A stretch of DNA of 29,510 nucleotides. Origin: a virus. Shown here piece after piece: positions 742-22,634 of this stretch (the stretch's first letter is position 1; each line of letters opens with the position of its first letter). Under the pieces are notes generated by a model. That model was not told the origin of the DNA, did not search any database, and worked only from the letters and a program-made list of their open reading frames with translations. Made by a program: the position numbers and the translations under genes. Location of the stretch: positions 1-29,510 of the IMG/VR virus record IMGVR_UViG_3300032307_000243. The stretch is one strand, 5' to 3'.

Positions 742-1182
742 ATGGCTACACAACGATTATACGATAAAATTACTGTAAAAGGTAAAACAGATATAGCTGA
801 AACTCCTTTACCTAGAACATACAGGGGGTTTAGCACTATCAGTGCGGACAGTGAAAGTTATACATTATATGATCTTGCCTTAATTAAACAAGACTTAATC
901 AATCACTTTCATATTAGACAAGGGGAAAAACTCAGCGATCCTGAGTTTGGGACTATTATTTGGGATATGTTATTTGAGCCATTAACTGAAGATTTAAAAG
1001 AAGTAATATTACAAAACGTAGAAGACATTATCAACTATGATCCAAGAGTACGTGCTGATGAAGTAGTTATTACCAGCTACGAAAGCGGTCTACAAATAGA
1101 ATGTACTGTTACGTATCTCCCTTATAACGTAGCAGAAACACTTCAATTTAGATTTGATCAAGCCAACGGTTTAATTACTTAA
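742..1182 (+). CDS. gp25: Baseplate wedge protein gp25 (GPW/gp25 family)
   Basis: The 146-aa product is close to T4 gp25 (132 aa). The diagnostic region is residues about 45-100: an 'alikqdlinhf' helix, then the motif GEKLSDPEFGTIIWDMLFEP, an acidic helix, and INYDPRV. This pattern is typical of the gp25/gpW/TssE family. In contractile tails gp25 binds gp6 in the baseplate wedge core and primes sheath assembly; the family name 'lysozyme' is historical and no catalytic residues are claimed. The gene lies 8 bases after the gp5-like gene. The nearest Shine-Dalgarno match, GAGG at 725-728, is 13 bases from the ATG, longer than usual, so translation may be coupled to the upstream gene. The next gene is gp6, its known structural partner. 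Confidence 0.95.
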   Translation: MATQRLYDKITVKGKTDIAETPLPRTYRGFSTISADSESYTLYDLALIKQDLINHFHIRQGEKLSDPEFGTIIWDMLFEPLTEDLKEVILQNVEDIINYDPRVRADEVVITSYESGLQIECTVTYLPYNVAETLQFRFDQANGLIT

Positions 1183-1234: not shown

Positions 1235-4200
1235 ATGTCATCAACTGATAGACAAAATAGATTACTAGTAGCAGAAGACTGGAAAAGAGTTTACCAGAGC
1301 TTTAGAAACGCAGATTTTCAAAGTTACGATTTTGAAAATTTACGCAGAGTAATGATTAATTACTTGCGTGAAAATTATCCAGAAGATTTTAACGATTATA
1401 TTGAAAGCAGTGAGTACCTTGCACTTATTGATATGATTGCATTTTTGGGTCAAAGTATTGCGTTTCGTGTTGACCTAAATGCTCGTGAAAACTTTTTAGA
1501 ACTAGCAGAAAGACGCGAAAGTGTACTGCGTTTAGCACGTTTACTCAGCTACAATGCTAAAAGAAATCGTACAGCAAACGGCCTTTTAAAATTTACCAGC
1601 GTCAGTACAACACAGACTGTTATTGACAGTAACGGTAGAAATTTAGCTGGACAAGTAGTTTTATGGAACGATCCTGCTAATAATAATTGGTATGATCAGT
1701 TTGTTAAAGTAATGAACACTGCTATGCCAACATCAAGTCAGTTTGGAAACCCAGACGACAAAGCTACAATCTACGGAATTCCCACAGAACAATATCGTTT
1801 TCAAACCTATAGCACAGGCGTTCCTGTTTTTGGTTTCACCAAAACTGTTGATGGACGCAACATGAATTTTGAAGTTGTAAGTACAGTTTTAGAAAATGAT
1901 CAAAACATAGTTGAAGATGCACCGCAAGCTGGAAAACAGTTGGCATTTTTATACAGAGATGATGGTAAAGGCGCAGCCAGTCCGACATCAGGATTCTTTT
2001 TACATTTCCGTCAAGGCAACTTAAACACTGGAACTTTTACAGTGTCTCAGCCTAGTACTAATGAAATAATTGACATTGAAGCTAACAACATTAATGATAC
2101 TGATGTATGGCTCTATCGATTAAACACTAACGGAGTTGAAAGCGAACTATGGGCCAAAGTACCAAGTTTTGAATCTAACAATGTAATTTATAACAGTCTT
2201 AAAAAGAACATTCGTAATATTTACGGAGTAGTAACACGTGCCAATGACCGTGTTAGTCTAACATTTAGTGATGGTACTTTTGGTACATTGCCATTGGGAA
2301 CATTTAGAACTTATTACAGAGTTAGTAATGGTTTGTCTTATACAATTAATCCTAAAGATGTAAGGAATGTTAGTATTGATGTACCTTACATTAGTAATGT
2401 GGGGCAAGCCGAAGTACTGACAATTACAATGAATTTACAGAGTTCTGTAAGTAACGCCGCCTTAAGCGAAAGCAATGACAACATTAAAGCCAACGCACCT
2501 GCTACTTACTATACACAAAATAGAATGATTACTGGTGAGGATTATAATATTAGTCCTCTGTCAGTAAGCCAAGACGTAGTAAAAATTAAAGCAGTAAACA
2601 GATCCAGTAGTGGCATTAGTCGTTATTTTGACCTAATAGATCCTACTGGAAAATATTCAAGTACTAATTTGTTTGGTGACGATGGCATAATTTATAAAGA
2701 AGATTACACTGACAGTTTTAGATTTAGTTACACAACTAGAACAGATATTGAAGGAATAATTTATAATCAAATTTTAGATGTGTTAAAAGATACTGATTTA
2801 CGTAATTTTTATTATGCTAATTTTAGTAAAATTACAACAGGGTCGTTAAACATTGCTTGGTTCCGAAAAACTTCAGATACAAATGAAAGTACAGGTTATG
2901 TTGGAGACAGTATTGATTCAACACCTTATAGAACAGGCACATTTGCTGCCACAGACTTACAATACTTTGAAGAAAATGCACTTGTAAAGTTTGAAGCACC
3001 AGCAGGAAAATATTTTTTAACTACTGATGATAACAAATTAGTTACTGGTTCAGCCACTGTTCCAGGAGCAGCCACAAGTATTTGGGCTAAAGTTATCAGT
3101 GTTAGTGGTGACGGAACAAATAATGGCAGAGGTGAACTCGCAGACGGTAGCGGTCCTATCGTGTTAAACAACATTGTACCTTCTGAAGCCATTGTTTCAC
3201 AAATTATTCCACGTTGGAGAACTAGTATTGCAAGTAATGTAATTGCTAGTATGATAGAATTAATTTTTGCTAACAAACCATTTGGACTACGATATGACAT
3301 TATTACTAAAACTTGGAAAATTATATTTGAAGGTAATTTGAATATTAATGATAAATTTAGTTTAGGTAAACAAGGTGATAATAGCAATCAAAAATTAGAC
3401 AGTAGTTGGTTACTGTTGTTTACTACAGATACTGAATTTTATACTGTGGCTTCAAGAAAATTACGTTATGTTCTTGAAAGTGATCAGCAAATTCGCTTCT
3501 TCTTTGAAAAAGCCAATAAAATTTATGACAGTAAATCAAATACTATTGTTAAAGACAGAATTAAAGTTTTAAGCGTAAACAATAAACCTAATGTAACATC
3601 AGCCTTTACATTTGACCAAGATTGGGAAATTGATAAAGAATACATAGGGCTAGATGGATATGTTGATAATAAAAAAATTGAACTTGCATTTAGTGATACC
3701 GACAGCGACGGAGTTGTTGATGATCCAGATGTTTTTGAAAATATTGTTGATACGTCAACAACAGCTATTCAAGAAAAATATGTTATATTAGAAAGATATG
3801 ATGTGATTCCAGGTCAACAAGACTATAGATATATTAGTAACAGTAACGAAACAGTGTTAATGGTTGCTAATGAATTATCAGTTGGTAATTTAAACTTGTA
3901 TGTCGATGGGCAATATTTTTACTTTGAAGATAAAGCAGTCGTTAAAAAATTAGATAAAATTCAAGGTAGATTTGTAACAAGTTTAGATTACAAAGTTTAT
4001 CCTGGTCGTGCCGGATTAAAATTCCAATACGTGCATAGTGCAGATTATGAAACAAGGATTGATCCTGGCCAAACAAATATTGTTGATTTATATGTGTTAA
4101 CTAGAGAATACGATGTTGAGTTTAGAAAATGGCTATCAAATAGTATAGACGATGAACCTTTACCATCAAGCTCAGACCAATTGTTTATATCACTGGCACC

Positions 4201-4693
4201 GTCGTTGAACGCTATTAAATCTGTCAGCGATGAAATCATATATCATCCTGTAAAATATAAAGTATTATTTGGAGCAAAAGCAAGTTTAGATGTTAGAGCT
4301 AGTTTTAAAATTATTAAAAATACAGAGCAACCAATTAGTGATAACGACATTAAATCTAGAGTAGTTACTGCAATTAACGAATTTTTTGCATTAGAAAATT
4401 GGGACTTTGGTGACAGCTTTTACTTTAGTGAATTAGCAACTTATGTAATGAACAGAACAGCACCATATCTAGTAAATTTTGTAATTGTTCCAAGACAAAG
4501 TAATTTGTCTTTTGGTAGTTTATTTGAAATTAAAGCAGATAGTGATCAAATTTTTATTAATGGTGCAACTACAGATGATATTGAAGTAGTAGAAGGCATA
4601 ACATCCAGTGTTATTGCATCCGGTGGATCTATCACAGCAACAAGTAATGTAACAGCACAACAGAGTGTAACAAGTAGAACAGGGAGTTATTAA
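1235..4693 (+). CDS. gp6: Baseplate wedge protein gp6, enlarged
   Basis: The N-terminal 110 residues are a clear T4 gp6 signature: a helix-rich stretch with NYLRENYPEDFNDYIESSEY, then a segment ending in VDLNARENFLELAERRESVL and ARLLSYN. Further on are features shared with baseplate-J proteins: SDGTFGTLPLG at residues 345-355 and ITGEDY at 432-437. The C-terminal region from about residue 1030 (SDNDIKSRVVTAINEFF, then a Phe/Tyr-rich segment) resembles the gp6 dimerisation end. In T4, gp6 dimers form the inner ring of the baseplate and bind gp25 and gp7. At 1152 aa the product is nearly twice the T4 length (about 660), the excess apparently lying between residues about 480 and 1000, in beta-rich sequence not recognised here. 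The start is supported by GGGAAG at 1224-1229. The stop TAA shares its last base with the next ATG (TAATG). Confidence 0.93.
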   Translation: MSSTDRQNRLLVAEDWKRVYQSFRNADFQSYDFENLRRVMINYLRENYPEDFNDYIESSEYLALIDMIAFLGQSIAFRVDLNARENFLELAERRESVLRLARLLSYNAKRNRTANGLLKFTSVSTTQTVIDSNGRNLAGQVVLWNDPANNNWYDQFVKVMNTAMPTSSQFGNPDDKATIYGIPTEQYRFQTYSTGVPVFGFTKTVDGRNMNFEVVSTVLENDQNIVEDAPQAGKQLAFLYRDDGKGAASPTSGFFLHFRQGNLNTGTFTVSQPSTNEIIDIEANNINDTDVWLYRLNTNGVESELWAKVPSFESNNVIYNSLKKNIRNIYGVVTRANDRVSLTFSDGTFGTLPLGTFRTYYRVSNGLSYTINPKDVRNVSIDVPYISNVGQAEVLTITMNLQSSVSNAALSESNDNIKANAPATYYTQNRMITGEDYNISPLSVSQDVVKIKAVNRSSSGISRYFDLIDPTGKYSSTNLFGDDGIIYKEDYTDSFRFSYTTRTDIEGIIYNQILDVLKDTDLRNFYYANFSKITTGSLNIAWFRKTSDTNESTGYVGDSIDSTPYRTGTFAATDLQYFEENALVKFEAPAGKYFLTTDDNKLVTGSATVPGAATSIWAKVISVSGDGTNNGRGELADGSGPIVLNNIVPSEAIVSQIIPRWRTSIASNVIASMIELIFANKPFGLRYDIITKTWKIIFEGNLNINDKFSLGKQGDNSNQKLDSSWLLLFTTDTEFYTVASRKLRYVLESDQQIRFFFEKANKIYDSKSNTIVKDRIKVLSVNNKPNVTSAFTFDQDWEIDKEYIGLDGYVDNKKIELAFSDTDSDGVVDDPDVFENIVDTSTTAIQEKYVILERYDVIPGQQDYRYISNSNETVLMVANELSVGNLNLYVDGQYFYFEDKAVVKKLDKIQGRFVTSLDYKVYPGRAGLKFQYVHSADYETRIDPGQTNIVDLYVLTREYDVEFRKWLSNSIDDEPLPSSSDQLFISLAPSLNAIKSVSDEIIYHPVKYKVLFGAKASLDVRASFKIIKNTEQPISDNDIKSRVVTAINEFFALENWDFGDSFYFSELATYVMNRTAPYLVNFVIVPRQSNLSFGSLFEIKADSDQIFINGATTDDIEVVEGITSSVIASGGSITATSNVTAQQSVTSRTGSY

Positions 4694-7600
4694 TGGCTGA
4701 AGAGCAAAATGAGTATGGCCTGCCTGTAGGTAAGGGTGAAAAAAGAAGAACTGCTAGATTACTGCCTAGATTTTATAGGACTGAACCTAATAAAAAACTT
4801 CTTCAGGCTACAATCGATCAGCTGACTCAGAGCGGTACTGTTAAACGAATTAACGGATTTATTGGCAGACAAAACGCTAAAGCAGTTACTGGCAATGACG
4901 TTTTTGTTCAAGCACCTACAACAGAAAGACAAAATTATCAATTAGAACCTTCTCTTGTTGCTAAAGATACTTTAGGCAATGTTACTTTCTTTAAAGATTA
5001 TATTGACTATATTAATACTGTAGATGTTTTAGGCGGTATTAATAAAAATCATCAAAGATTAAACAAAGAAGAATTATATAGTTGGAGCCCCCAAATTGAC
5101 TGGGATAAGTTTGTAAACTTTCAGCAATATTATTGGCTACCGTATGGCCCACAAGTTGTTAAGGTATTTGGCCAACAACAGGCAGTAGTTAGTACATATA
5201 CTGTTGAATTACGAGATGAAGGCGACAATAATGCCTATCTGTTTACTCCAAATGGATTAACACGAAACCCAACTCTTAAATTATACAGGGGTCAAACCTA
5301 TAGGTTTGAAATTAATACTCCAGGGGAACCTTTTAGTATCAAAACTGTTCGTGAATCTGGAACACTATATCGTTATACAAAAAATGTTTCAGCAAGTTCA
5401 GTTCAAAACGGAGTAATTGAGTTTACTGTTCCAGAAGATGCTCCTGACGTTTTGTATTATGTCAGTGAAAACAGTGTTGACACTGGCGGAGCATGGCAGA
5501 TATTAGACATTGAAGAAAACACATTCATTGACGTAGAAGCAGAAATTATTGGTAAAAAAACTTACAAGTTATCTAGCGGATTGGATTTAAGTAACGGTAT
5601 GAAAGTTACTTTTGGTGGTAATGTTACACCAGAAAAATATGCTTCAGGTAATTGGTTTATAGAAGGTGTTGGCGACAAAATTAAATTAATTTCTGAACAA
5701 TCATTAGAAATTGTTACAAGCTATTCAGAAAATTTTGAAGTATTATTTGATGATTCAGGATTTGATACGTTACCTTTCAGTGATGCTACTGCTTATGCTT
5801 CAGATAAAGATTATATCACAATTAACAGAGGTAGCATAGACGGTAACGCATGGAGTAGGTATAACAGATGGTTTCATCAAGATGTTATTATTAAAAGCGC
5901 ACAAGAAGCCGGACTTACTCCAGTTTTAGATCAAACACAACGAGCCAATAGACCTATTATTGAATTCGCTCCAGATTTAAAATTATACGAATATGGTACT
6001 AGTGTAAAGAAAGATGTTGACTTAGTAGATTTATATACTAGAGATGTTTTTTCTACTATTGAAGGTAGTTTAGGATACACTATAGATGAAATACCTTTAG
6101 CTAATGGACAACGAATTTTATTTTTAGCAGATACTGACGCACTTGTTAGAGGTAAGATTTACAGGGTGGAATTCATCAGTTTACAAGAGCCTAATCAAAA
6201 TCCTAAAAGACAAATCCACTTAGTTGAAGAATCTGATTCTAGCCCATTAGTTTATGAATCTGTGCTAGTTAAAAACGGTGTTGAAAACCAAGGAAAAGTT
6301 TTTTGGTACAACGGTACAGAGTGGAAAACAGCACAACAAAAAACCAAAGTTAATCAATCACCATTGTTTGATTTGTTTGATTTAGACGGTGTTAATCTTA
6401 ATGATGCTACAAAATATTCTGGATCAACATTTACTGGTAATAAAGTTTTTTCTTATAAAGAAGGGTCAGGTAGCAATGATCCAATTTTAGGATTTCCTCT
6501 TACTTACAGAAATATTAATAATGTAGGCGATATAGTTTTTACTTTTGATCTATTACAAAATCAATTCTTTTATAAAGAAGGTGTTGATGTTATAACTGAA
6601 AATACTGATAGTAAATTTCTTAAAAAAATTATAGATAGGGAAACAGGGGTTCATGTCAACGGTTGGGTTATAAATCAATTAACTAATGTACAGCCTATTG
6701 TTAGGATCTATAAAGATTCTAAAAATACTACAGAGTTCTTAGTAGATGTATATGATAACATTGACGAGCTTGCTGATCTAAAAGTAAAAGTTTATATTAA
6801 TGGCAAAAGATTAGACGCATCTAAATTTGTTGTACAAGATACACCCGTATACAAAAAAGTAGTACTGGCTACAGCAGTTAACGAATCAGATGTTGTTACA
6901 TTAAAATGCTATGCTAAACAAAATAAAAATAATAACGGGCATTATGAAATACCATTAAATTTACAAAACAATCCGTTAAACAACAACATTAATATCTTTA
7001 CTCTTGGTGAAGTTATTGATCATGTTGACAGCATTGTAGATAATTTAGATGTGTTTGTTGGAGCATATCCAGGAACTGGTAATCTACGTGATTTAGGAGT
7101 TATTGCGCCTTACGGTACAAGATTTGTTCAACATAGCGGGTCAATGAATCTAGGACTTTACTTTTTAACATCTAAAAATTCAAACGTAATTAAAGCTATT
7201 GAGACTGTTAGAGATGATTACGGCAAGTTTAAAAGAAACTTTGCTAATACTGCTAAAGAGTTTGGTGACGATTTGTCTATTAAAGATTCAGTAGACAAAA
7301 TACTATTTGAAATTAATAAAGACAAACCAAAAATGTCACCGTATTATTTTAGTGATATGATTGGTTATGGCGCAGCAATTAAAACAGATTATGAAGTAGT
7401 TGATTTTAGAATTAAAACTTATCCTATTAGTAATGTGTTTGATCTTAATCAGTTAACAAATAAAAGCGTCAACGTATACTTAAACAATGAACAATTAGTA
7501 TATGAAAAAGATTACACCTTTAATGAAGGCGGGTTCGTAGTTATATCTGCAAATATTGATAATGGCGATGTGATTACTGTTTATGAATATGAAAGCACTG

Positions 7601-10600
7601 ACGGTTGCTTGATACCGCCAACTCCAACAAGTTTAGGATTATGGCCAAAATTTGAACCAAAAAAATATTTAGATACTACATTAGTTGCACCACAAAATGT
7701 GATACAAGGACACGACGGCAGTGTCATTTTAGCGTACAATGATTATAGAGATGACTTAATATTAGATTTAGAAAAACGTATTTTTAATAATATTAAAGTA
7801 AATTATGATCCTGTTATATTAGACATTTATGATTATATTGCTGGTTATAATAGAACAACTGATTACACATTAGAAGAGTTTAATAAAGTATTAGCTCCTA
7901 ATTTTTATCAGTGGACAACGTTAATAGATAGAGATTTTACAAAACCTCTAAGTTACGCACCTAATAATCCTTTTACCTACAACTATTCTAAGAGCTCTGC
8001 ACCAGATGGAACATCTTTACCTGGTTACTGGAGAGGAGTTTACAAATGGTACTTTGACACTGATAGAGTCCATTTGTGCCCATGGGAAAGTTTAGGTTAT
8101 AGTATTGAACCATCGTGGTGGCAAAACGTGTATGGACCTGCTCCGTATACAAAAGATAATTTAATTTTATGGAATGATTTAAAAGATGGTATCGTAAGAG
8201 AGCCAGGAAAACCTTTAGTTAGAAAAACAAAATTTGCAAGGCCAATTTTAGAAAACATTCCAGTAGACGAAAATGGTAACCTAGTAGCACCAGTTGATGC
8301 TAATATTGCTAATGGGTTTTTCTCGTCACAAATTACTGATGACTATGTGTTTGGAGATCAAAGTCCTGTAGAAACAACATGGAGAAGAAGTAGTTACTAT
8401 CCATATAGTGTGTTATCTGCAATGACTTTAATGCAACCAAATAAAGTTATTGGATCTTTAATTGATAAATCTAGAGTAATTAAAAGTGATAGTCAACAGT
8501 TAATATACAAAGATACTGGATTACGTTTAAGACTAAAAGATTTAGTAGTTCCCTCAATCCCAAGCGATGACACAAGAGTTATGACGGCAGGGTTGATTAA
8601 CTTTGTCGTTGATTATATTTTAAGTGATAACTTAAAATCAATAACTGAATTTAAAAATGATCTAACAACATTAACAAATCAGTTAAGCCATAGACTAGGC
8701 GGGTTTACTAGCAAAGAAAAATTTAATTTAATATTAGATAGCAAAAGTCCAACTGCTACTGCTGGTGTTTTTGTACCGCAAGAAAATTACACAGTATTTT
8801 TGAATACAGGATCGCCTACTAAAAAATTAACGTACAGTGGCGTTATTGTTACTAAAATTTTAACAAAATATGGAAGTGGATTTGAAGTAAAGGGTTATAG
8901 TCAAAAACAACCTTTCTTCTACTATTATCCATGGACACAAAGTGGCAACACTATTAATGTTGGCGGTATAAGTGAAAGTTTTATTCAGTGGACTGCTGGT
9001 CAAATTTATACTGCTGGAAATATTGTACAGTACAATAATGCATATTATAGAGTAAAAACAACACACACTGCTCAAGCAAATTTTGATAATACGTTATATC
9101 AAAAATTGCCTAAACTTCCAGTTGTAGGCGGTCGTGATGCCATTGTTAGAAAGAAATGGGATCGAACTCCTACCATTGTAAATTATGGAACAACTTTTAG
9201 AACTATTCAAGAAGTAGTAGATTTTTTACAAGGTTATGGTGAATACTTAAAAGACCAAGGGTTTGTTTTTGATGAATATAACACTGACTTAAAAGAAATT
9301 ACTAGTTGGGAAACTGCTGTAAAAGAATTTTTATTCTGGACTACTCAAAATTGGAGTACTGGTGAGGACAAGTATGTTGATTGGATTCCTGATGCAGAAT
9401 ATAAAGAGGGCGTAATTGTAATTTACAATGGAGATTACTACAGATCAAAATTTGATCACACAACTACTAATTTGTTTGACTCAACATTATATGTTAGATT
9501 AGAAAATCTCAGTCAAGACGGCGCTAGTGCTATAGCACTAAGTCCATCAGCTCTTGGCCTTGCAATGAATTTAGAATTTAACGTTGTTGATGATCTAAGA
9601 GATACATTTAATGACTATGAAATTTTTAGAGCAGATGGACAAAAATTTGATCAGAACTTTTTAAATTATACTAGAGAAGACAATACATTTGCTTTCAGTC
9701 CACGAGTTGATGGCATTGGAATTTATGGTGCAGGATTTTATCTTGTACAAAAAGAGCATGTTCTTTTAATTGATAATGTAACACAATTTAATGATACTAT
9801 CTATGATTTAGAAGCAGGATATCGTCAAGAAAGAATTAAGGTAGCAGGTTATAAAACATCTGACTGGTATGGCGGTTTTGATATTCCTGGATTTATCTAT
9901 GATAAAGCATATATTGAAGTATGGCAACAGTGGAATGATTATAATTTAGGTGATATTGTAAAATATAAAGAGTTTTACTATAGTGCATCTAAATTTTTAC
10001 CTGGCGCAGAAGAATTTGTAGCCAGTGACTGGATTAGATTAGATGAAAAACCAGAATCTCAATTATTACCTAACTGGGATTATAAAGCAGATCAATTTAC
10101 TGACTTTTATGATTTAGAAAGTGATAATTTTGATGCAGGCCAACAACGTATAGCTCAACATTTAATTGGCTATCAAAAGCGTCAATATCTTGAAAATATT
10201 ATTAAAAACGATGTAAGTGAATACAAGTTTTATCAAGGTATGATTCCTGAAAAAGGCACAACAAATGTGTTGAATAAACTATTTGATGTGTTAAGTGCTG
10301 CGGATCAAGAAAGTATTGACTTTAATGAAGAATGGGCAGTACGCCTTGGGCAATACGGTGGTTCAGACGCATTTGAAGAAATTGAATTTAATCTTGATCA
10401 AACACTGTTTAAAACAAACCCACAGGCATTTGAACTTGTAAATGTAGTTGATAATAATCTTGTAGATTTTGTTATCAGACAAACTCCTGCCCAAATTTAC
10501 GTTAAACCTAAAGAGTACAATAATAATCCTTGGCCATCCCGTACCGGTGGCAGAGATTATTTAAGAACTCCTGGCTATGTTAGATATGATCAAATTAATG

Positions 10601-13600
10601 TTAATATTGATTCTTTAGACAACATTGTTAACGAAGATATAGATACATTCAAAGATGGTGATTATGTTTGGTGCGCATTCCAAAATAGAGATTGGAATAT
10701 CTATAGATTTACACCTGCAGAATTTTTTGTAAAAGATTTAGAGTATAATAACAATGTGTTAAAAATACAATGTGATAAAATACCTTCTGTTGAAGCAGGA
10801 GACTATATTGGTATTATTAACAGCGACTTAGTTAAGGGGTTTCATAAAGTTGATGATGTTGTTCTTAACAACATTTACATTAACAAAACAATTAAAAATT
10901 GGAAAGATCCTTTCCAAGATAGTGCGCAAATATTAATTTATAAATTAACACCACAGCGTTTTTCCAGCATTGATTCAATAACTTTGCCTAAAGTTATTAA
11001 AAATTCTGAATATGTTTGGACTGATGATGTTGGTAACGGCAAACCTGGAGTATGGAAAAATATTCCAGTTTATGCTAGGAAAAAATTAACAAACCCATTA
11101 TTGCCAGCTGGTAGCAGATTAGGTAAAGCACTAGCAGTAAGTCGCAATGGTCAAATAATGGTAACGTCCAATGATCAAGATGAAATACTTGTTTACAACA
11201 AATCTAACAGCACTACAGGATGGACACGTAGACAAAGTTTACAGCCAGCTCCAGCACTTGGTGTGCTAACAGGATTTGGCGATGTGCTGGCGCTAAGTGA
11301 AGATGGTAAATTTATGGCAGTCGGCCTACCAAACTCAAGCACAGTGTCTACTAAATTTAAAGGCGATTATAATAATACTGGTGCTGTTACATATAGCGCA
11401 GGCGATATTGTAAGAGTAGGAAACACACACTGGAAAGCCAAAAAAACTGTAGTAGGTGATGGTAGTTCTATTAGCTTAAACTCATTAGATTGGGAACCAG
11501 CATATTTGATAGAAGTTGATAATGTTGGAGGAACAGCCAGTGTATTAGCAAATCAAGGTATGGTAATTCTCTATATTAGAGATGACAACGGTGATTATGC
11601 GTTCTTAAATTCTTTTGTAAGTCCAGAACCAACTACAAACGAATATTTTGGATCAAAAATTAAAATAGCCAAAAAAGATAACAGCTATACTATGGCTATT
11701 AGCAGTATTGGATATAATTCAGGTCAAGGTAGAGTTTACTTATTTGATTATAATAGCACAGCCAGCAGATGGCAAATGGGATACGATTCTAAATATAGAG
11801 GTTTTTATAGTGGTACTGTAGAATATGGAATTGGTGACATTGTGTTCTATGACTTTAAACTATATCAAAACATTAGAGCCTGTGAAGGAATTAATCCAGA
11901 AACAACAAATAATTGGCAACGTATCACAGATAAAAATATTTTAGGTTACTTCCCACAACAGATAACAACTGCTGAAACAGATTCTAATTTAGATTACTTG
12001 CCAATGGTAGGTGATGGATCTACAGTAATTGATGGGTTAGGAGATTCTACTACACAAGCTAAAGAAACTGTTGAAGCTATAAGACAAGGGGATCAGTTTG
12101 GGTATGACTTTGACTTTAGCCAAGATGGTTCGTATCTTATAGTTAGTGCTCCTTTAGCAGATCAATTAGTATATGAAAATTTTAGAGGAATATATAGAAC
12201 TAATCAAACTTATATACTTAACGATGTTGTTCTGCATTCTGGAAGTTATTACAAGTGTTTAATAAGTTTTAATGGTGTTGCTGCCGGTGTATTTGATGCT
12301 GGTAAATGGCAACTATTGTCGTCATCTCTTGAAGCAAATAATGGCAAAGTGTTTGTTTATAAAAAAGATGAAGATAGTTATGACCTTATACAAACTTTAG
12401 GAAGAAGTAACGTAAACTTTACCAGCGCCGAAAAATTTGGTGAAAGCGTATCATTAGCATCAGATGGAAGCACCGCGGCTATTGGTAGTTTATTAGCTGA
12501 TGACATTAAGACTGATCAAGGCGTTGTACGAGTATTCAATTTACAAAATAATAATTTTGTATTCAAACAATTAATTAAAAATAGAAGCCCAGAATCTGTT
12601 GAAGGGTTTGGTGCTGAAATAAAATTTATAAACAACAATAAAACTCTTGCAATATTAAGTGCGTTAGGTGATAGTACAATTACTACAACATTTGATTCTA
12701 ACAACACAACATTTGATAGAACTTCAACAAGGATTCGTGACTTTAATAGAGACAGCGGTAGAGTTGACATTTACGACAAGTACAATGAAAACTTTATATT
12801 TTCAGAGTCATTGCCAGTAGAAAATTCTAGTATTGATAGATATGCTTATGCGTTTGATGCAGGCAATAACGTTATTGTAACATCAGCTATAAATGCAGTA
12901 AGCACATCAGTTAGAAATGGTGCATTATACACATATACTAAGTCTACAAATGGATTTAGTTGGACATTGGATCAACAAGAGTCTAACAAAGTTGATATTA
13001 GTAAAATTAAAAAAGTTTTCTTATACAATAAGAAAACAAACGATCTAGTAACATACTTAGATGTTATCGACCCAGTTCAAGGAAAAATTGCCGGGGTTGC
13101 AGAGCAAGAAATCAAATACAAAACATATTATGATCCGGCTACTTACTCTATTGGTACAGATGATCTACGTGTAGATGAAGGAATGGCTTGGTTAGATAAT
13201 CAAGTTGGTACACTGTGGTGGAATCTCACAAGGGCTAAATTTTTAGATAGTTATACTGGTGACATTGTTTATAAAAACAGCACTTGGAATACATTATATG
13301 AAACTGCAAGCATTGATGTTTATGAATGGGTTGAAACTAAACTAACACCAGAACAGTGGGACGCAAAAGCTGACACCGAAGAAGGACTCGTATTAGGTAT
13401 TAGTGGCACTAGTTTATACGGTAATAATGCTTACAGTGTAAAAAGAAAATATGATTCAGTTTCTCAAACTTTTAGAAATACCTATTATTTCTGGGTTAAA
13501 AATAAAACTATAGTCCCAAATGCACAGGGAAGAAGTATTTCTGCTAGTGATGTAGCTTCTTTGATAAGAGACCCTAAAGGACAAGGACTTAAATTTATAC

Positions 13601-16600
13601 AATTTACAGATACTGATTCTTTCAGTTTAGTTAATATTACTAACAACTTACAGAACAGTGAGACTGTTTTAGCAGTGCAATATTGGATCGTTGATCAAGA
13701 AAAACTGAATATACATGCTGATTGGAAGATTATTAGCGATAATAAAAACACAGAAATTCCGTCACTAATAGAAAGAAAATGGATAGACAGTTTAATAGGG
13801 GTTGATGAAAATAATAAATTAGTCCCAGATATTAATTTGCCACCTAAACAAAGATACGGTGCACAATTTGTGCCAAGACAAAGTATGTTTGTTAATAGAT
13901 TAGAAGCGTTAAAACAATTTGTTGAAAGACTTAACAGTGAATTTAAAAAATTATTAATTGTTGATGCTGTTGATTTAACTGATTTTAATTCTATTGATAA
14001 AGAACCGTCGACAATTTCTGGATTATACGACTATGTTGTAGATGCAGACAATGAACTACGATTAATTAATACAGGTGGTTTTAGAGCACCAAGTTTGAGA
14101 CCAGTGGTAGTTGATGGTGAAATTATTGATGTTTTAATTGATAATGCAGGTTCTGGATACATCTATGCTCCTTACTTAACAATTAATGGAACAGGTAAAG
14201 ACGCTAGAATTAAAACTATTATTGATGAAACTAATGGTAGTATTATTGGTGTAAACATAATAAACAAAGGTTACGGATACAATGAATTTGCTACAACAAT
14301 TACTGTAAGAGATTTGTCTACTCTGGTTAAAAGCGACACTAATGCTATTGGCCGCTGGAGCATTTATGCTTACAATACTGTATCAAATTCTTGGACTCGT
14401 ACAAAAACACAAGGGTATGACGTTACTCAATTTTGGAATTATATTGACTGGTATTCAACTGGATACAATCAATTTACTAAAGTTGATTACATAGTGGATG
14501 GAACTTATCAACTTTACACATTAGAAGCTGACATTGGCCAAATAGTTAAAGTTAAAAATGTGGGATCAGCAGGTTGGGTATTATTAGAAAAATTCTCTAA
14601 TATCAAGAGTGTAGATTACACTCAGTCATATAGAGTAGTGGGTAGACAAAACGGCACTATTCAATTGTCTAATAAATTCTATCAATTTGTAGACACTAAT
14701 TTAGGCTTCGATGGTCCATTATTTGATGCTGATACTTATGATAATTCTGGATCTATTGAGTTAAGGATTATTCTTACAGCCCTTAAAGATAAAATATTAA
14801 AAGATGATTTAAGATACATCTATTTAGATTTATTCTTTGCTAATTTACGTTATGTATTGACAGAACAAACATTTGTTGATTGGATATTTAAAACAAGTTT
14901 TGTTAAGGCCATGCATAATGTTGGCGAATTAAAACAAAAAGTTACTTACAATAATGATAGTTTAGAAGATTTTGAAAATTATATTTCTGAAGTAAAACCA
15001 TACAGAACTAAAATTAGAGAATATGTAAGTAACTACACAGCTAAAGATGACAGTCAGAGTGTAGTAACTGATTTTGACTTACCTGCGGTTGCCAAAGGAA
15101 ATAAAATAGAGCCATTAACAGTTACAGTAGACAATGAGACTATAGTAACTAATGATCCTGAAATTAATGAATATCCATGGAAACATTGGTTGGACAATGC
15201 TGGTTTTAAAGTAGACGAAATCACATTAGTTGATGGTGGTTCTGGCTATATTAATCGTCCTGTAGTAAACATTATTGGTAAATGCACTACACCTGCTGTG
15301 GCTAGAGCGTATATTGCTAACGGTAAAGTTACAAAAATTGAACTATTATCTAAAGGTTCTGGCTATCTAAAAGCACCAATTATAGAAGTGTCTGGCGGAT
15401 TTGCCACAACAGGTACAACTGCTAGAGCAGTAGCTATTATTAAAAATGATGTTGTGCGTAGTAATTTAATCAAAATTAAATTTGATAGAATTACTAGAAA
15501 CTTCTTTATTACAGATTTGTCTGTTACAGAAACATTTACGGGTACAGGGTCTAGATTACAGTTTCCATTAAAATGGAGCCCAGACACTCGCATTGGTAAT
15601 ACAACTGTTACTGTACAAAATCAAGAAGCACTACGTGATACCTTTACAGTTACTAGCAGAAAATCTACTAGTAGAGGATATACTTCATATTCTGGACTGT
15701 TAACGTTTGATACTGCACCTGCGGTAGGTGAACAAATTAGTATTACCTATGTAAAAGACTTTAATAATTTGTCTGCGGCAGATCGCATTAATTATTACTA
15801 TAATCCAGAAACTGGGCAGTTAGGTAAAGATATGGCCCAACTTATGACTGGTGTGGATTATGGCGGTGTAAACATTGTAGGACTTGATTTTAAAGCTAGT
15901 AATGGCTGGGATGAATTGCCATGGTTCAATGACGTATGGGACACATTTGATGCAACGTTTGATGATTACATAGTTACAGTATCAGATAGCAGTTATGAAT
16001 TCCAATTGCCATACACTCCTGCTGTTGGACAGCAAATTAACGTTTATGTTAATGGTGTAAGAATAGACGATCTATATTTTGATTTGTACGACGGAAGCAC
16101 TGTACAACCTAATGGCAGAGTTGTAGCACCTGCTACAGCTAGAATGAAAACAATTATTGGTAACGGAACTACTAGTACTTTTGCTTTACCTAACTTAACA
16201 AATAACCCGCCACTAGATATAAATTCTGGCGACCAAGTTATTTTTAGAAAGGCCACAAGTGATGGATCACAAGCACCAAATAATTTGGATTATGATACTG
16301 CGCTAAGTGGCGGAGATATGGCATATTCTACAGCAACAGGTCTTGCGGCTGAGGATATTATTGTTGATGGTGACGGATTTGCAACACCAACTTCTAGCCC
16401 AGCCACAGAAGAAGTAGTGCCAGGTCAAATTTTTGACGCAGTTGCAATTAAAGTATTTCACAGACCAACTAATGGATCTGCCAATGTTGTAACTAAAAAT
16501 TATGTTGCAGATGGCGCTACAACATCTTTTTCTATAGAACAGTATCCTAATACACAAGAAGCATTGATAGTAAAAATTAATAATAACATAGTTGATTTAG

Positions 16601-18636
16601 ATACCGAGTACACTGTTAATTATGACACTAAATCAATAGAATTTTTAACAGCTCCTGCAGACAAAGCTATAGTATCTGTAACTAGTTTTGGTTATAATGG
16701 AACTGACATATTAGATCTTAATTATTTTGTAGGCGATGGCAGCACAATTGAATACATTACTGGAGCAACATGGAGTGAATCAGCAACATCATTAGTAGTT
16801 GTTTCTGGAGTACCAAAAGATTATGTATTGTTTAGGACTGACGCATCTTATGAAAGTAAAGATAAAATTGGAATAAGATTTGGCGCTGCTCCAGATGATG
16901 GTACAGTTATCAATTATCTAATTTCAGGATCTTCAGAAAGAACATTCAGTTTAACATCTAAAGAAACTATTGTAGGCGACGGCTCAACAAGCATGTTTAC
17001 GTTGTCAAATAATTTAGGCAATAAAGATCCTTTTGAAGCTAATATTATTGTTAGAAATGCCAATACAAATCAAATTTTGTCTGGGCCTGATAACACGTAT
17101 TACACTCTTACAAATGATAATTTAAGATATAAAATTCCTACAGTTAAGTTTGAAGCTGATTTTTATGAAACTAATGATTTTAAAGTCTATCTTAATGGTG
17201 ACGAACTGACATTAATGTTAGATTACACACTTGATTTACTAACCGGTGAAGTTATTTTAAATATCGACACATATGTAGATGACGGCAGATTAATTGTAAG
17301 CATATTACCAAACGCTCAATATCAAATATCTACAGACTCTACTAATAAAATTATATCTTTTGCCAGTTCACCTGCATTGAATCATGAAATTGTTATACTC
17401 AGTATGTATAATCATGATGTTTTAGATATTGAACGTAGTCATATTACAATAGAAACTGCTAATTCTTTAACACCTGACACGGTTGAATATTTAGAATATG
17501 GTAAATCGTTAGGTGGTATACTTGCTCTAAATAGAGAAGTTGTAAGTGATGATTTTGTGTTAGTTATTAAAAATAACACGTTACTGACTTCTAGTGTAGA
17601 TTATGTATTGTTACCTAATAAACTTGAAGTTAAATTAACTGATAGTCCCGTAGACGGTGATGAATTTAGTGTAATAACATTTTCTAGCAATGTATCTAAA
17701 GGCGGTTTTGGATATATGCAGTTTAAAGATATGCTAAATCGAGACCACTACAAGAGAATTTCTAAAGATAAAAGTACAATTCTTGTTGAGCCGTTAAACT
17801 ATTATGACAATCAAATTGTTGTAGACAATGGCACAGTATTAACAGAACCTAACAGAGGTAGAAATTTACCAGGTGTAATTTATATTAACGGTGAACGAAT
17901 TGAATATTTTGTACTTAATGGCAATATATTATCACAAATTAGAAGAGGAACACTAGGTACTGGAACACCTCTAGTACATGCTTCTGGTTTAGATGTTATA
18001 GACATTGGGCCTACAGAAACAATACCGTACACTGACGAAATGATTATTGATACACACGTTCACGACGGTAGTACTAATTTAATTCCATTGCAGTATAGAC
18101 CAGAACCAACAACAGGTACTATAGATGACGGCAGTACAGAATATACTGAATGGTTTAGAAGTACTATTCCTGCACAACTTGGCCAATGTGACGAAATTGA
18201 AGTATTTGTTGGCGGATACAATATTAAAGGAACATGGGAATCAAACATTGATTATAGTATGAATGAGATAGTTGTATATGGATCTTATATGTTCCGTTGT
18301 GTACAAAATCATACTAGTGGCGAATCTTTTGCAGATGACAAAAACAAATGGGAATACTTTGTGGGAACACAGAGATTGAAGAAAGTTCCGTATAAAGTTT
18401 ACAACAACGATTTACATCCAGAAAGCCCCGAGGGCGATGAACAGTTTGAAGCAGATTTTGCTGTAGACGGCACTTCACATACTGTGCGTTTAACACAGGA
18501 TCTAACTATTGGAACTAAAGTTGTAGTTATAAAGAAAGTTGGACATGTTTGGAATGATCCAGGCAAGAGCTTAGTTGATTCTAACAACAAAGTTGCTAAT
18601 TTCCTTAAGAATACTAGCACTTTATTCCCTCGATAA
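4693..18636 (+). CDS. Giant multidomain virion structural protein (4647 aa), probable baseplate/tail component in the gene 7 position
   Basis: One uninterrupted frame of 4647 codons, giving a protein of roughly half a megadalton. AGGGAG at 4681-4686 lies 6 bases before the ATG, which overlaps the gp6 stop by one base. Visible parts in order: a compact N-terminal region (1-160) with FYRTEPNKKLLQATIDQLTQ and an aromatic FQQYYWLPYGP; a cupredoxin-like domain (about 180-275); a long Tyr/Trp/Asn-rich stretch; three CBM5/12-like modules (about 1432, 1562 and 1742); an FG-GAP-type beta-propeller (about 2142-2763) with three more such modules inserted; GSGY repeat blocks (about 3140-3206 and 3505-3585); DGST-type beta modules (about 3615-4300); a C-terminal segment with a YINGERIEYF motif and a seventh CBM-like module (about 4513-4556). 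No signal peptide or membrane segment is evident. Between gp6 and fibre genes it occupies the slot of T4 gene 7 (1032 aa). Similarity to giant structural proteins of marine T4-like phages is from memory; homology to gp7 is not shown here. Confidence 0.85.
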   Translation: MAEEQNEYGLPVGKGEKRRTARLLPRFYRTEPNKKLLQATIDQLTQSGTVKRINGFIGRQNAKAVTGNDVFVQAPTTERQNYQLEPSLVAKDTLGNVTFFKDYIDYINTVDVLGGINKNHQRLNKEELYSWSPQIDWDKFVNFQQYYWLPYGPQVVKVFGQQQAVVSTYTVELRDEGDNNAYLFTPNGLTRNPTLKLYRGQTYRFEINTPGEPFSIKTVRESGTLYRYTKNVSASSVQNGVIEFTVPEDAPDVLYYVSENSVDTGGAWQILDIEENTFIDVEAEIIGKKTYKLSSGLDLSNGMKVTFGGNVTPEKYASGNWFIEGVGDKIKLISEQSLEIVTSYSENFEVLFDDSGFDTLPFSDATAYASDKDYITINRGSIDGNAWSRYNRWFHQDVIIKSAQEAGLTPVLDQTQRANRPIIEFAPDLKLYEYGTSVKKDVDLVDLYTRDVFSTIEGSLGYTIDEIPLANGQRILFLADTDALVRGKIYRVEFISLQEPNQNPKRQIHLVEESDSSPLVYESVLVKNGVENQGKVFWYNGTEWKTAQQKTKVNQSPLFDLFDLDGVNLNDATKYSGSTFTGNKVFSYKEGSGSNDPILGFPLTYRNINNVGDIVFTFDLLQNQFFYKEGVDVITENTDSKFLKKIIDRETGVHVNGWVINQLTNVQPIVRIYKDSKNTTEFLVDVYDNIDELADLKVKVYINGKRLDASKFVVQDTPVYKKVVLATAVNESDVVTLKCYAKQNKNNNGHYEIPLNLQNNPLNNNINIFTLGEVIDHVDSIVDNLDVFVGAYPGTGNLRDLGVIAPYGTRFVQHSGSMNLGLYFLTSKNSNVIKAIETVRDDYGKFKRNFANTAKEFGDDLSIKDSVDKILFEINKDKPKMSPYYFSDMIGYGAAIKTDYEVVDFRIKTYPISNVFDLNQLTNKSVNVYLNNEQLVYEKDYTFNEGGFVVISANIDNGDVITVYEYESTDGCLIPPTPTSLGLWPKFEPKKYLDTTLVAPQNVIQGHDGSVILAYNDYRDDLILDLEKRIFNNIKVNYDPVILDIYDYIAGYNRTTDYTLEEFNKVLAPNFYQWTTLIDRDFTKPLSYAPNNPFTYNYSKSSAPDGTSLPGYWRGVYKWYFDTDRVHLCPWESLGYSIEPSWWQNVYGPAPYTKDNLILWNDLKDGIVREPGKPLVRKTKFARPILENIPVDENGNLVAPVDANIANGFFSSQITDDYVFGDQSPVETTWRRSSYYPYSVLSAMTLMQPNKVIGSLIDKSRVIKSDSQQLIYKDTGLRLRLKDLVVPSIPSDDTRVMTAGLINFVVDYILSDNLKSITEFKNDLTTLTNQLSHRLGGFTSKEKFNLILDSKSPTATAGVFVPQENYTVFLNTGSPTKKLTYSGVIVTKILTKYGSGFEVKGYSQKQPFFYYYPWTQSGNTINVGGISESFIQWTAGQIYTAGNIVQYNNAYYRVKTTHTAQANFDNTLYQKLPKLPVVGGRDAIVRKKWDRTPTIVNYGTTFRTIQEVVDFLQGYGEYLKDQGFVFDEYNTDLKEITSWETAVKEFLFWTTQNWSTGEDKYVDWIPDAEYKEGVIVIYNGDYYRSKFDHTTTNLFDSTLYVRLENLSQDGASAIALSPSALGLAMNLEFNVVDDLRDTFNDYEIFRADGQKFDQNFLNYTREDNTFAFSPRVDGIGIYGAGFYLVQKEHVLLIDNVTQFNDTIYDLEAGYRQERIKVAGYKTSDWYGGFDIPGFIYDKAYIEVWQQWNDYNLGDIVKYKEFYYSASKFLPGAEEFVASDWIRLDEKPESQLLPNWDYKADQFTDFYDLESDNFDAGQQRIAQHLIGYQKRQYLENIIKNDVSEYKFYQGMIPEKGTTNVLNKLFDVLSAADQESIDFNEEWAVRLGQYGGSDAFEEIEFNLDQTLFKTNPQAFELVNVVDNNLVDFVIRQTPAQIYVKPKEYNNNPWPSRTGGRDYLRTPGYVRYDQINVNIDSLDNIVNEDIDTFKDGDYVWCAFQNRDWNIYRFTPAEFFVKDLEYNNNVLKIQCDKIPSVEAGDYIGIINSDLVKGFHKVDDVVLNNIYINKTIKNWKDPFQDSAQILIYKLTPQRFSSIDSITLPKVIKNSEYVWTDDVGNGKPGVWKNIPVYARKKLTNPLLPAGSRLGKALAVSRNGQIMVTSNDQDEILVYNKSNSTTGWTRRQSLQPAPALGVLTGFGDVLALSEDGKFMAVGLPNSSTVSTKFKGDYNNTGAVTYSAGDIVRVGNTHWKAKKTVVGDGSSISLNSLDWEPAYLIEVDNVGGTASVLANQGMVILYIRDDNGDYAFLNSFVSPEPTTNEYFGSKIKIAKKDNSYTMAISSIGYNSGQGRVYLFDYNSTASRWQMGYDSKYRGFYSGTVEYGIGDIVFYDFKLYQNIRACEGINPETTNNWQRITDKNILGYFPQQITTAETDSNLDYLPMVGDGSTVIDGLGDSTTQAKETVEAIRQGDQFGYDFDFSQDGSYLIVSAPLADQLVYENFRGIYRTNQTYILNDVVLHSGSYYKCLISFNGVAAGVFDAGKWQLLSSSLEANNGKVFVYKKDEDSYDLIQTLGRSNVNFTSAEKFGESVSLASDGSTAAIGSLLADDIKTDQGVVRVFNLQNNNFVFKQLIKNRSPESVEGFGAEIKFINNNKTLAILSALGDSTITTTFDSNNTTFDRTSTRIRDFNRDSGRVDIYDKYNENFIFSESLPVENSSIDRYAYAFDAGNNVIVTSAINAVSTSVRNGALYTYTKSTNGFSWTLDQQESNKVDISKIKKVFLYNKKTNDLVTYLDVIDPVQGKIAGVAEQEIKYKTYYDPATYSIGTDDLRVDEGMAWLDNQVGTLWWNLTRAKFLDSYTGDIVYKNSTWNTLYETASIDVYEWVETKLTPEQWDAKADTEEGLVLGISGTSLYGNNAYSVKRKYDSVSQTFRNTYYFWVKNKTIVPNAQGRSISASDVASLIRDPKGQGLKFIQFTDTDSFSLVNITNNLQNSETVLAVQYWIVDQEKLNIHADWKIISDNKNTEIPSLIERKWIDSLIGVDENNKLVPDINLPPKQRYGAQFVPRQSMFVNRLEALKQFVERLNSEFKKLLIVDAVDLTDFNSIDKEPSTISGLYDYVVDADNELRLINTGGFRAPSLRPVVVDGEIIDVLIDNAGSGYIYAPYLTINGTGKDARIKTIIDETNGSIIGVNIINKGYGYNEFATTITVRDLSTLVKSDTNAIGRWSIYAYNTVSNSWTRTKTQGYDVTQFWNYIDWYSTGYNQFTKVDYIVDGTYQLYTLEADIGQIVKVKNVGSAGWVLLEKFSNIKSVDYTQSYRVVGRQNGTIQLSNKFYQFVDTNLGFDGPLFDADTYDNSGSIELRIILTALKDKILKDDLRYIYLDLFFANLRYVLTEQTFVDWIFKTSFVKAMHNVGELKQKVTYNNDSLEDFENYISEVKPYRTKIREYVSNYTAKDDSQSVVTDFDLPAVAKGNKIEPLTVTVDNETIVTNDPEINEYPWKHWLDNAGFKVDEITLVDGGSGYINRPVVNIIGKCTTPAVARAYIANGKVTKIELLSKGSGYLKAPIIEVSGGFATTGTTARAVAIIKNDVVRSNLIKIKFDRITRNFFITDLSVTETFTGTGSRLQFPLKWSPDTRIGNTTVTVQNQEALRDTFTVTSRKSTSRGYTSYSGLLTFDTAPAVGEQISITYVKDFNNLSAADRINYYYNPETGQLGKDMAQLMTGVDYGGVNIVGLDFKASNGWDELPWFNDVWDTFDATFDDYIVTVSDSSYEFQLPYTPAVGQQINVYVNGVRIDDLYFDLYDGSTVQPNGRVVAPATARMKTIIGNGTTSTFALPNLTNNPPLDINSGDQVIFRKATSDGSQAPNNLDYDTALSGGDMAYSTATGLAAEDIIVDGDGFATPTSSPATEEVVPGQIFDAVAIKVFHRPTNGSANVVTKNYVADGATTSFSIEQYPNTQEALIVKINNNIVDLDTEYTVNYDTKSIEFLTAPADKAIVSVTSFGYNGTDILDLNYFVGDGSTIEYITGATWSESATSLVVVSGVPKDYVLFRTDASYESKDKIGIRFGAAPDDGTVINYLISGSSERTFSLTSKETIVGDGSTSMFTLSNNLGNKDPFEANIIVRNANTNQILSGPDNTYYTLTNDNLRYKIPTVKFEADFYETNDFKVYLNGDELTLMLDYTLDLLTGEVILNIDTYVDDGRLIVSILPNAQYQISTDSTNKIISFASSPALNHEIVILSMYNHDVLDIERSHITIETANSLTPDTVEYLEYGKSLGGILALNREVVSDDFVLVIKNNTLLTSSVDYVLLPNKLEVKLTDSPVDGDEFSVITFSSNVSKGGFGYMQFKDMLNRDHYKRISKDKSTILVEPLNYYDNQIVVDNGTVLTEPNRGRNLPGVIYINGERIEYFVLNGNILSQIRRGTLGTGTPLVHASGLDVIDIGPTETIPYTDEMIIDTHVHDGSTNLIPLQYRPEPTTGTIDDGSTEYTEWFRSTIPAQLGQCDEIEVFVGGYNIKGTWESNIDYSMNEIVVYGSYMFRCVQNHTSGESFADDKNKWEYFVGTQRLKKVPYKVYNNDLHPESPEGDEQFEADFAVDGTSHTVRLTQDLTIGTKVVVIKKVGHVWNDPGKSLVDSNNKVANFLKNTSTLFPR
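5230..5517 (+). other. Cupredoxin-like domain in the giant protein, copper ligands not conserved
   Basis: Residues about 180-275 read as a small beta-sandwich: NPTLKLYRGQTYRFEINTPG, EPFSIKT (212-218), then IEFTVPEDAPDVLYYVSENS (242-261). The order 'NPTLxLxRGxTYxFxI...xPFxIKT...FTVPxDAPxxLYY' is that of cupredoxin-like domains. In copper-binding members a His precedes the PF, and a Cys with a later His follows the YY. Here these places hold Glu and Val/Ser, so metal binding is unlikely and a structural or adhesive role is more probable. The domain call rests on motif recall without a structure comparison. Confidence 0.55.
8986..9111 (+). repeat. CBM5/12-like aromatic module 1 in the giant protein
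   Basis: Residues about 1432-1472 follow the pattern W-x-x-x-x-x-Y-x-x-G-x-I-V-x-Y-x-x-x-Y-Y: QWTAGQIYTAGNIVQYNNAY, then YRVKTTHTAQANFD and a Leu-Tyr close. This matches the consensus of carbohydrate-binding module family 5/12 (chitin-binding type 3 fold), in which the Trp and Tyr residues stack on sugars. The closing Trp of the classic module is replaced by Leu-Tyr. It lies about 90 residues upstream of module 2. Confidence 0.55.
9376..9504 (+). repeat. CBM5/12-like aromatic module 2 in the giant protein
   Basis: Residues about 1562-1604 repeat the module-1 layout: VDWIPDAEYKEGVIVIYNGD, then YYRSKFDHTTTNLFD and STLYVRL. Modules 1 and 2 share the ending 'F-D-x-T-L-Y-x-x-L', a closer likeness to each other than to modules 3-7, which suggests a local tandem duplication. 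The Trp, Tyr and 'G-x-I-V-x-Y' positions fit a CBM5/12-type fold. Confidence 0.55.
9916..10044 (+). repeat. CBM5/12-like aromatic module 3 in the giant protein
   Basis: Residues about 1742-1784 contain VWQQWNDYNLGDIVKYKEFY, then YSASKFLPGAEEF and ASDWIRLDE. This copy has the full classic layout, including the closing Trp ('S-D-W'), and is one of the closest to the CBM5/12 consensus. Sugar binding is inferred from the conserved aromatic positions. Confidence 0.6.
11356..11505 (+). repeat. CBM5/12-like module 4, inserted after propeller repeat 2
   Basis: Residues about 2222-2271: FKGDYNNTGAVTYSAGDIVR, then VGNTHWKAKKTVVGDGSS and SLDWEPA. The 'Y-x-x-G-D-I-V-x-x-x-x-x-x-W' core and the closing 'D-W' fit the module family. 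It interrupts the FG-GAP series between repeats 2 and 3, so it probably projects from a propeller loop. Confidence 0.55.
11791..11928 (+). repeat. CBM5/12-like module 5, inserted between propeller repeats 3 and 4
   Basis: Residues about 2367-2412: YRGFYSGTVEYGIGDIVFYD, then FKLYQNIRACEGINPETTNN and WQRI. It has the 'Y-x-x-G-D-I-V-x-Y' core, a Tyr in the second strand and the closing Trp. It is the second insertion into the propeller series. Confidence 0.6.
12181..12321 (+). repeat. CBM5/12-like module 6, inserted between propeller repeats 4 and 5
   Basis: Residues about 2497-2543: FRGIYRTNQTYILNDVVLHS, then GSYYKCLISFNG, FDAGKWQLL. The 'Y-x-x-N-D-V-V' core replaces 'G-D-I-V', and the Tyr-Tyr and closing Trp are kept. 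Modules 5 and 6 both start with an 'F/Y-R-G-x-Y/F' segment, suggesting common descent. Confidence 0.55.
14110..14310 (+). repeat. GSGY repeat block A in the giant protein
   Basis: Residues about 3140-3206 hold two units of the pattern 'G-x-[I/V]-x-x-[V/I]-x-[I/L]-x-[N/D]-x-G-x-G-Y-x-x-x-P/A': GEIIDVLIDNAGSGY followed by YAPYLTING, then GSIIGVNIINKGYGY followed by NEFATTITV. Such units occur in many phage and bacterial extracellular beta-rich proteins. Function is unknown. Confidence 0.5.
15205..15441 (+). repeat. GSGY repeat block B in the giant protein
   Basis: Residues about 3505-3585 hold two units: DEITLVDGGSGYINRPVVNI, then GKVTKIELLSKGSGY followed by LKAPIIEVSGG, each ending in an Ala/Arg-rich strand (AVARAYIANG, TTARAVAIIKN). 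Block B matches the consensus more closely than block A about 300 residues upstream, and the two are separated by a helical segment with several 'Y-x-x-x-I' heptads. Confidence 0.5.
15538..17160 (+). repeat. Series of DGST-type beta modules in the C-terminal third of the giant protein
   Basis: Residues about 3616-4156 contain five modules opening with '[G/D]-[N/D/T]-G-[S/T/A]-x-x-x-[F/Y]': GTGSRLQFPL (3617), GNGTTSTFALP (about 3823), ADGATTSFSI (about 3939), GDGSTIEYITG (about 4014) and GDGSTSMFTLS (about 4095). Several continue with an 'I-V-x-[I/V]-N-x-x' strand, a 'Y-x-[V/L]-N/D' strand and a closing 'F-x-x-A-P-x-x-G/K-x-x-[I/V]' strand. This is a common layout of small beta-sandwich repeats in phage fibre-like proteins. 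Spacing ranges from about 75 to 205 residues. Confidence 0.5.
18229..18360 (+). repeat. CBM5/12-like module 7 near the C-terminus of the giant protein
   Basis: Residues about 4513-4556: KGTWESNIDYSMNEIVVYGS, then YMFRCVQNHTSGESFADDKN and KWEYF. This copy has the clearest classic form: 'W-x-x-x-x-x-Y-x-x-x-x-I-V-x-Y', then an aromatic strand with 'C-V-x-x-H-T-S-G', then 'F-x-x-D-x-x-x-W-x-x-F'. It is about 90 residues from the end of the protein. Confidence 0.65.
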
Positions 18637-22627: not shown

Positions 22628-22634
22628 ATAAATA
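22627..22634 (+). promoter_or_regulatory. T4-type late promoter motif AATAAATA
   Basis: AATAAATA matches NATAAATA and overlaps the last base of the upstream stop codon. It lies 20 bases before the ATG at 22654, with AGGGG at 22641-22645 as the ribosome site. The spacing matches the motifs before the genes at 18659 and 24165. Confidence 0.6.

Follow-up and report, generated by a model that had tools for sequence, protein, structure and literature searches.

A predicted seven-bladed FG-GAP propeller with three CBM5/12-fold modules in its loops inside a giant phage structural protein

Introduction

Propellers in phage tails, domains inserted into a tail propeller and CBM insertions in baseplate proteins are already known. 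The propeller of the integrins alpha-L and alpha-M is built of seven FG-GAP blades and carries an inserted domain, the alpha-I domain, which sits between blades 2 and 3. In propellers of antiparallel four-stranded blades, one face of the ring carries the A-B and C-D loops and the other face the B-C and D-A loops. Among phages, the SU10 nozzle and T7 gp12 are seven-bladed tail propellers in which the connection from blade 2 to blade 3 holds inserted domains; the SU10 nozzle carries in addition a fibre-dock loop on blade 1 (PMC9509320). PhiKZ gp131C is described as a seven-bladed tail propeller at the baseplate periphery and phi11 gp45 as a five-bladed tail propeller with a proposed binding of GlcNAc, and neither description reports inserted CBM modules. 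In siphophages, lactococcal ones among them, evolved Dit proteins contain CBM-type insertions in loops, present in some relatives, which in lactococcal phages improve adsorption to EPS-bearing hosts (PMC10688798). In the Bacillus phages Vp4 and Deep-Blue several CBM folds occur on wedge and tail proteins, and the CBM-bearing baseplate wedge protein of Vp4 binds cells; these modules are CBM16- and CBM22-like beta-sandwiches, and no propeller is mentioned (PMC11406892).

The window analysed here, a whole virus record of 29,510 bases, encodes a giant protein with a predicted propeller that shares elements with several of these systems. As in the integrins, it combines seven FG-GAP blades with insertion into the propeller; whereas the integrins have one large alpha-I domain, the window propeller has three small CBM5/12-fold modules, two of them inside blades (in B-C loops), and identity between an integrin alpha subunit and the phage propeller is ~13%. 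The likeness is one of fold and repeat type and does not imply a shared function. With evolved Dit it shares CBM-type modules in loops of a baseplate protein that vary among relatives. The phage type differs, however, and the scaffold is not Dit but an FG-GAP propeller in a phrog_10938 protein; moreover, the function demonstrated for evolved Dit is here proposed by analogy. The SU10 nozzle and T7 gp12 differ in that their inserts are Ig-like nozzle domains and not CBM5/12 modules, their tail is short and their propeller lines the tail channel. Finally, Milano gp124 and the tail fibres of Agrobacterium phage 7-7-1 carry tandem modules with the same fold and sequence profile as those of the window, but in Milano gp124 they stand at the N-terminus of the spike, for baseplate attachment, and there is no propeller.

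Results

The giant protein (4647 aa; 4693..18636, + strand) is a phrog_10938 virion structural protein whose gene follows a gp25-like baseplate wedge gene (742..1182, +; phrog_261, E = 2e-18) and a gp6-like one (1235..4693, +; phrog_10646, E = 1e-298). In T4, gene 7 lies directly behind the genes of gp25 and gp6. The window has this order, which is identical in Pseudomonas phage PA5oct, and the giant protein occupies the place of T4 gp7 in it. Profiles of residues 1-700, 700-1440, 2785-3480 and 3900-4647 retrieved no baseplate protein from the PDB, and residues 3136-3216 gave a weak profile match to tailspikes (E = 7e-4). A match of residues 3458-3578 to phrog_460 (head closure) was treated as incidental. 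The N-terminal third shows ~25-30% identity with large-genome phages and is also common to hundreds of uncultured virus contigs. According to its annotation, the PA5oct homologue was detected by ESI-MS/MS, which bears out the original prediction that the propeller lies inside a phage structural protein.

Downstream, positions 19269-24129 encode three adjacent paralogous fibre/collar-like proteins of 693, 425 and 491 aa that share the N-terminal module GKNYAGY..ENFxxLLENFA. Positions 25531-29345 hold a run of small ORFs that, by eye, resemble glycosyltransferases or related enzymes and include two paralogues (27739-28647 and 28647-29345). A phage decorating virion or host glycans would fit the sugar theme.

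The propeller region comprises residues 2142-2763 with its inserts (11116..12981, +). Pfam FG-GAP_2 scored 26.3 bits on this region (cut-off 23) and 15.7, below the cut-off, on the full-length protein; it was found in 51 of 57 relatives, with a best E of 5.8e-16. A profile of the region retrieved integrin alpha-L from the PDB by sequence alone (E = 2e-4). AlphaFold2, run with 57 sequences, produced seven four-stranded blades with a mean pLDDT of 80 and a pTM of 0.78, so that residues 2142-2763 are predicted to form a closed ring. The seven FG-GAP-type repeats proposed at the outset for residues ~2142-2763 are thus supported by Pfam, by the PDB profile and by the structure prediction suggested as a check. 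Superposition of the model on the integrin alpha-L headpiece (5e6r) gave a VIA Z of 28.8 over 350 residues at 3.2 A, the match spanning model residues 46-675, and the Foldseek search reached an E of 3e-11. WD40 propellers were nearly as good a fold match (Z ~27).

A tblastn search with the window propeller against named phages gave no match, and the same search with the insert-free propeller of the relative L005 gave one, an uncultured freshwater phage annotated as FG-GAP repeat (E = 2e-6). The propeller profile gave 134 pattern matches when scanned against genomes of bacteria and archaea, none of which was confirmed. PHROGs assigned no family to the window propeller; matches in the propellers of single relatives were due to collagen and fibre inserts.

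Blade limits were assigned by DSSP on the AlphaFold2 model, all features being on the + strand. Blade 1 covers residues 2143-2183 (11119..11241). Blade 2 (2194-2309; 11272..11619) is split between strands B and C, according to the model and a comparison with relatives, by insert 1 (2213-2287; 11329..11553), which occupies the B2-C2 loop and has a CBM5/12-like core at ~2222-2270 according to the model and the family profile. Blade 3 (2318-2362; 11644..11778) is followed, in the D3-A4 connection, by insert 2 (2363-2465; 11779..12087), made up of a CBM5/12-fold core at ~2367-2413 and a low-confidence linker. Blade 4 (2466-2569; 12088..12399) is again split between strands B and C, by insert 3 in the B4-C4 loop (2487-2550; 12151..12342), whose CBM5/12-like core at ~2497-2543 is indicated by Pfam, the model and the family profile. 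In the model, the ring is completed by blades 5 (2581-2628; 12433..12576), 6 (2638-2706; 12604..12810) and 7 (2716-2762; 12838..12978).

At insert 2 the window protein reads ...SRWQMGYD, the insert and then ETVEAIRQGDQFGYDF, compared with ...SAWTLEGAVETVTTVGDNFGYDF in L005, a close insert-free relative; on the basis of such relatives insert 2 was placed after the tryptophan-containing strand D of blade 3. The original prediction had the inserts after repeats 2, 3 and 4. Their number was right, and insert 2 does follow the last strand (D) of blade 3, but inserts 1 and 3 are each located within a blade (2 and 4, respectively), in the loop from strand B to strand C. In L005 and L071 the blades are identical in arrangement and all three inserts are missing, which indicates that the inserts are independent of the blades. 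As had been anticipated, they are not blade strands: inserts 1 and 3 in the model, and insert 2 when predicted alone, form separate small beta domains. Given the B-C and D-A positions of the loops and the topology of propellers, all three inserts are deduced to leave the same face. Of the expected three small beta domains on one face, the predictions thus give the separateness, and the common face follows from the topology of the chain.

We then considered the identity of the modules. Pfam CBM_5_12 (cut-off 26.2 bits) scored 65.7 on the whole protein, 48.3 on region 7990-11112 and 24.7 on the propeller region; taken singly, inserts 1, 2 and 3 scored 14.5, 12.9 and 20.7, all below the cut-off. 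Including the inserts, the giant protein contains seven CBM5/12-like modules, four of them outside the propeller, starting at residues 1433, 1564, 1744 and 4515. Identification of the inserts rests on the family profile, on the predicted fold of insert 2 and on the four-strand spacing of inserts 1 and 3. In the first AlphaFold2 model insert 2 had a pLDDT below 50. When it was predicted alone with 36 other modules, the pLDDT rose to ~90 over about the first 50 residues (11-50), and its strands started at 11/26/32/51, the spacing of the other two modules, whose strands start at 143/160/166/188 (insert 1) and 418/433/439/460 (insert 3) of the propeller model. The small twisted beta fold of chitin-binding domains was thus obtained for insert 2, and for inserts 1 and 3 by strand spacing only. 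Foldseek superposed insert 2 on chitin-binding domains at 0.6-1.2 A over ~40 columns (0.6 A for 1wvv, 0.9 A for 2d49), with E values of only 0.02-0.07. A second structural comparison gave a Z of 6-7 over 45 residues, which, being below 8, is modest for so small a domain; the sequence profile of the modules agrees with the predicted fold. Insert 2 also matched parts of phage and injection-system tails (8kec, 7b5h, 8fqc and 9rkv). Searched against PDB sequences, the module profile matched phage tail proteins best, namely the 7-7-1 tail fibre and Milano gp124.

The presumed ligand-loop tryptophan of chitin-active CBM5/12 (the modules of chitin deacetylases) aligned with a phenylalanine in the family profile. 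This position was phenylalanine in 249 of 315 modules, tryptophan was not among its six commonest residues, and inserts 1 and 2 of the window protein had no aromatic residue there. As the exposed tryptophan of the ligand platform is mostly replaced in the family, we speak of a CBM5/12 fold and not of CBM5/12 in the functional sense. Judged from this alignment, phenylalanine in place of tryptophan weakens the case for chitin-type binding and would be compatible with another ligand. Of the aromatic modules of CBM5/12 pattern proposed at ~2222, 2367 and 2497, the fold and the family profile hold, although each module by itself stays below the Pfam cut-off.

To place the inserts among relatives, a non-redundant set of 126 propellers was drawn from 307 retrieved loci, and the 123 of these that are shorter than 1000 residues were aligned. 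Total length ranged from 438 to 967 residues around a constant core of seven blades. Half of these relatives (62/123) contained CBM5/12-like modules in the propeller and the other 61 contained none; propeller modules are therefore accessory. Occurrences by site were 49 in B2-C2, 10 in D3-A4, 7 in B4-C4, 5 each in B1-C1 and D1-A2, and one each in D4-A5 (L009, with two modules) and C5-D5 (L063). Only CBM counts were used, the number of long inserts at D3-A4 (90) being inflated by a different module in C3-D3. Thus B-C and D-A loops, at six sites, account for 77 of the 78 occurrences and a C-D loop for the remaining one, and no A-B loop of the 123 propellers held an insert of 35 residues or more. 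Since the sequences are not independent, sites are the proper unit to count; six of the seven lie on the B-C/D-A face, for which a one-sided binomial gives ~0.06; by site count, the bias to the B-C/D-A face is suggestive only.

Modules changed frequently. A tree built with FastTree from 403 core columns requires at least 25 changes at the commonest site, gains and losses pooled, and at least 24 for presence or absence of any propeller module. L062 and L063 are 71% identical, and L063 has one cleanly inserted module where the loop of L062 is empty. Other kinds of insertion were also seen. Many relatives (L023, L046 and L056 among them) carry in the C3-D3 loop, before strand D3, a second module of ~70 residues with the pattern YNPxGS...GMxxxGxGF...QxV, on the face opposite to that of the CBM5/12-fold modules; L023 and L209 have both this module and a CBM5/12-like module directly behind strand D3. 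In L336, as compared with L338 and L353, the CBM5/12-like module of the B2-C2 loop is itself split by a segment of ~70 residues. The D4-A5 loop of L009 (IMGVR_UViG_3300037189_030513) contains, besides its two CBM5/12-like modules and in alternation with them, two collagen-like (GIQ)n stretches. Pfam Collagen was detected in the propeller of one relative (1.8e-12), and the presence of collagen in such a loop hints at neighbouring copies making trimeric contacts.

Not every member of the protein family has the propeller. Two homologues, in Atu_ph07 and Phosso (L083, residues 2280-3170; L084, residues 2325-3200), retain the sequences that flank it, with ~880 residues of different sequence in its place, a pattern resembling replacement of the propeller as a cassette. 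No convincing match to the propeller was obtained in PA5oct, SCTP-2 or RaK2. In contrast to the propeller modules, the CBM5/12-like modules at residues 1433-1472 (8989..9108, +), 1564-1603 (9382..9501, +) and 1744-1783 (9922..10041, +) were present in 81/81, 77/78 and 78/78 relatives, respectively, and are therefore part of a fixed design. The C-terminal one (4515-4549; 18235..18339, +) was found in 27 of 31.

Discussion

We favour the reading, with a probability of roughly 0.45, that the propeller is an accessory host-adhesion display platform in the giant protein, docking being a close rival. The seven blades would be kept as a rigid scaffold, one face of which would take up small CBM5/12-fold modules in its B-C and D-A loops. 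In the window phage the three modules (B2-C2, D3-A4 and B4-C4) would sit next to one another on that face and, by analogy with evolved Dit, most likely add weak multivalent binding, or avidity, for host surface polysaccharide at adsorption; exposure of the modules on the virion and the type of ligand are what we infer here. The seven-bladed fold, the module fold, the concentration of modules in B-C and D-A loops, module gain and loss and the dispensability of modules among relatives argue for adhesion, as do the contrast with the fixed modules outside the propeller and the precedents of evolved Dit and of the Vp4 wedge protein. Phenylalanine in place of tryptophan at the ligand loop argues against it, as do the statistical weakness of the face bias (six of seven sites) and the fact that phage modules of this fold solved in baseplates lie in attachment segments.

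These last structures lead to the reading that the inserts are protein-protein docking sites for tail fibres, spikes or neighbouring wedge proteins, different insert sets matching different fibres, which we regard as plausible, if less probable than adhesion. The closest sequence relatives of the modules in the PDB, as noted above, are phage tail proteins. In Milano gp124 the modules (27-118) belong to the N-terminal portion that binds the tail; within them lie two proline-rich motifs, 55-60 and 100-115, reported to touch the wedge proteins BW2 and BW3. Likewise, residues 124-187 of the A-1(L) chain 8kec_a belong to the 'joint' domain, which binds the wedge periphery. Receptor-binding proteins usually attach to BW3 (e.g. 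T4 gp7), according to the Milano paper, and the window ORF stands in the gp7 position; in the seven-bladed propeller of the SU10 nozzle, blade 1 carries the loop that serves as fibre dock, and the fixed modules at 1433, 1564 and 1744 would suit an attachment role. However, half of the relatives have a propeller free of such modules, and frequent change at the main site is less expected of an attachment point, even if fibres change too. If docking were true, CBM5/12 annotation in phage tails would often denote virion connectors and not sugar binding.

It is improbable that the loops of one face simply tolerate any domain and that the modules spread by recombination without a selected role. The same loops do hold other modules as well as collagen-like repeats and long segments of unknown kind, and the CBM5/12-like module can itself be interrupted (L336), but a single fold turns up at six or seven sites with its consensus aromatic residues kept, and it is missing from every A-B loop, equally open to chance insertion. 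A reading of the inserts as additional blade strands or as loops of low complexity is largely refuted and very improbable: despite the low pLDDT of insert 2 in the first prediction and a tail of ~55 residues that stays unmodelled, insert 2 predicted alone is confident over residues 11-50 and matches a chitin-binding domain, and the blades are complete in relatives without inserts.

The adhesion reading can be extended, more tentatively, to a two-faced exchange scaffold, on which modules swapped in the B-C and D-A loops would retune adsorption while the ~70-residue C3-D3 module occupies the other face in many relatives. Such a scaffold would be the phage version of the integrin alpha-I arrangement, the one domain being replaced by several exchangeable modules. 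In the open-access literature we found no paper joining FG-GAP, phage and propeller; nor did we find CBM5/12-fold modules recorded as inserted at several sites in a single propeller, or a one-sided, labile distribution of modules. Together with the lack of matches of the window propeller in named phages, this agrees with the original prediction, in which such an arrangement was not known to have been described.

If the favoured reading is true, many uncultured phages swap small binding modules on one face of one rigid protein, and there would be a testable account of how the giant wedge proteins of large-genome phages add to host recognition. The natural series of propellers with 0, 1, 2 and 3 modules on the same scaffold could then separate adhesion from docking.
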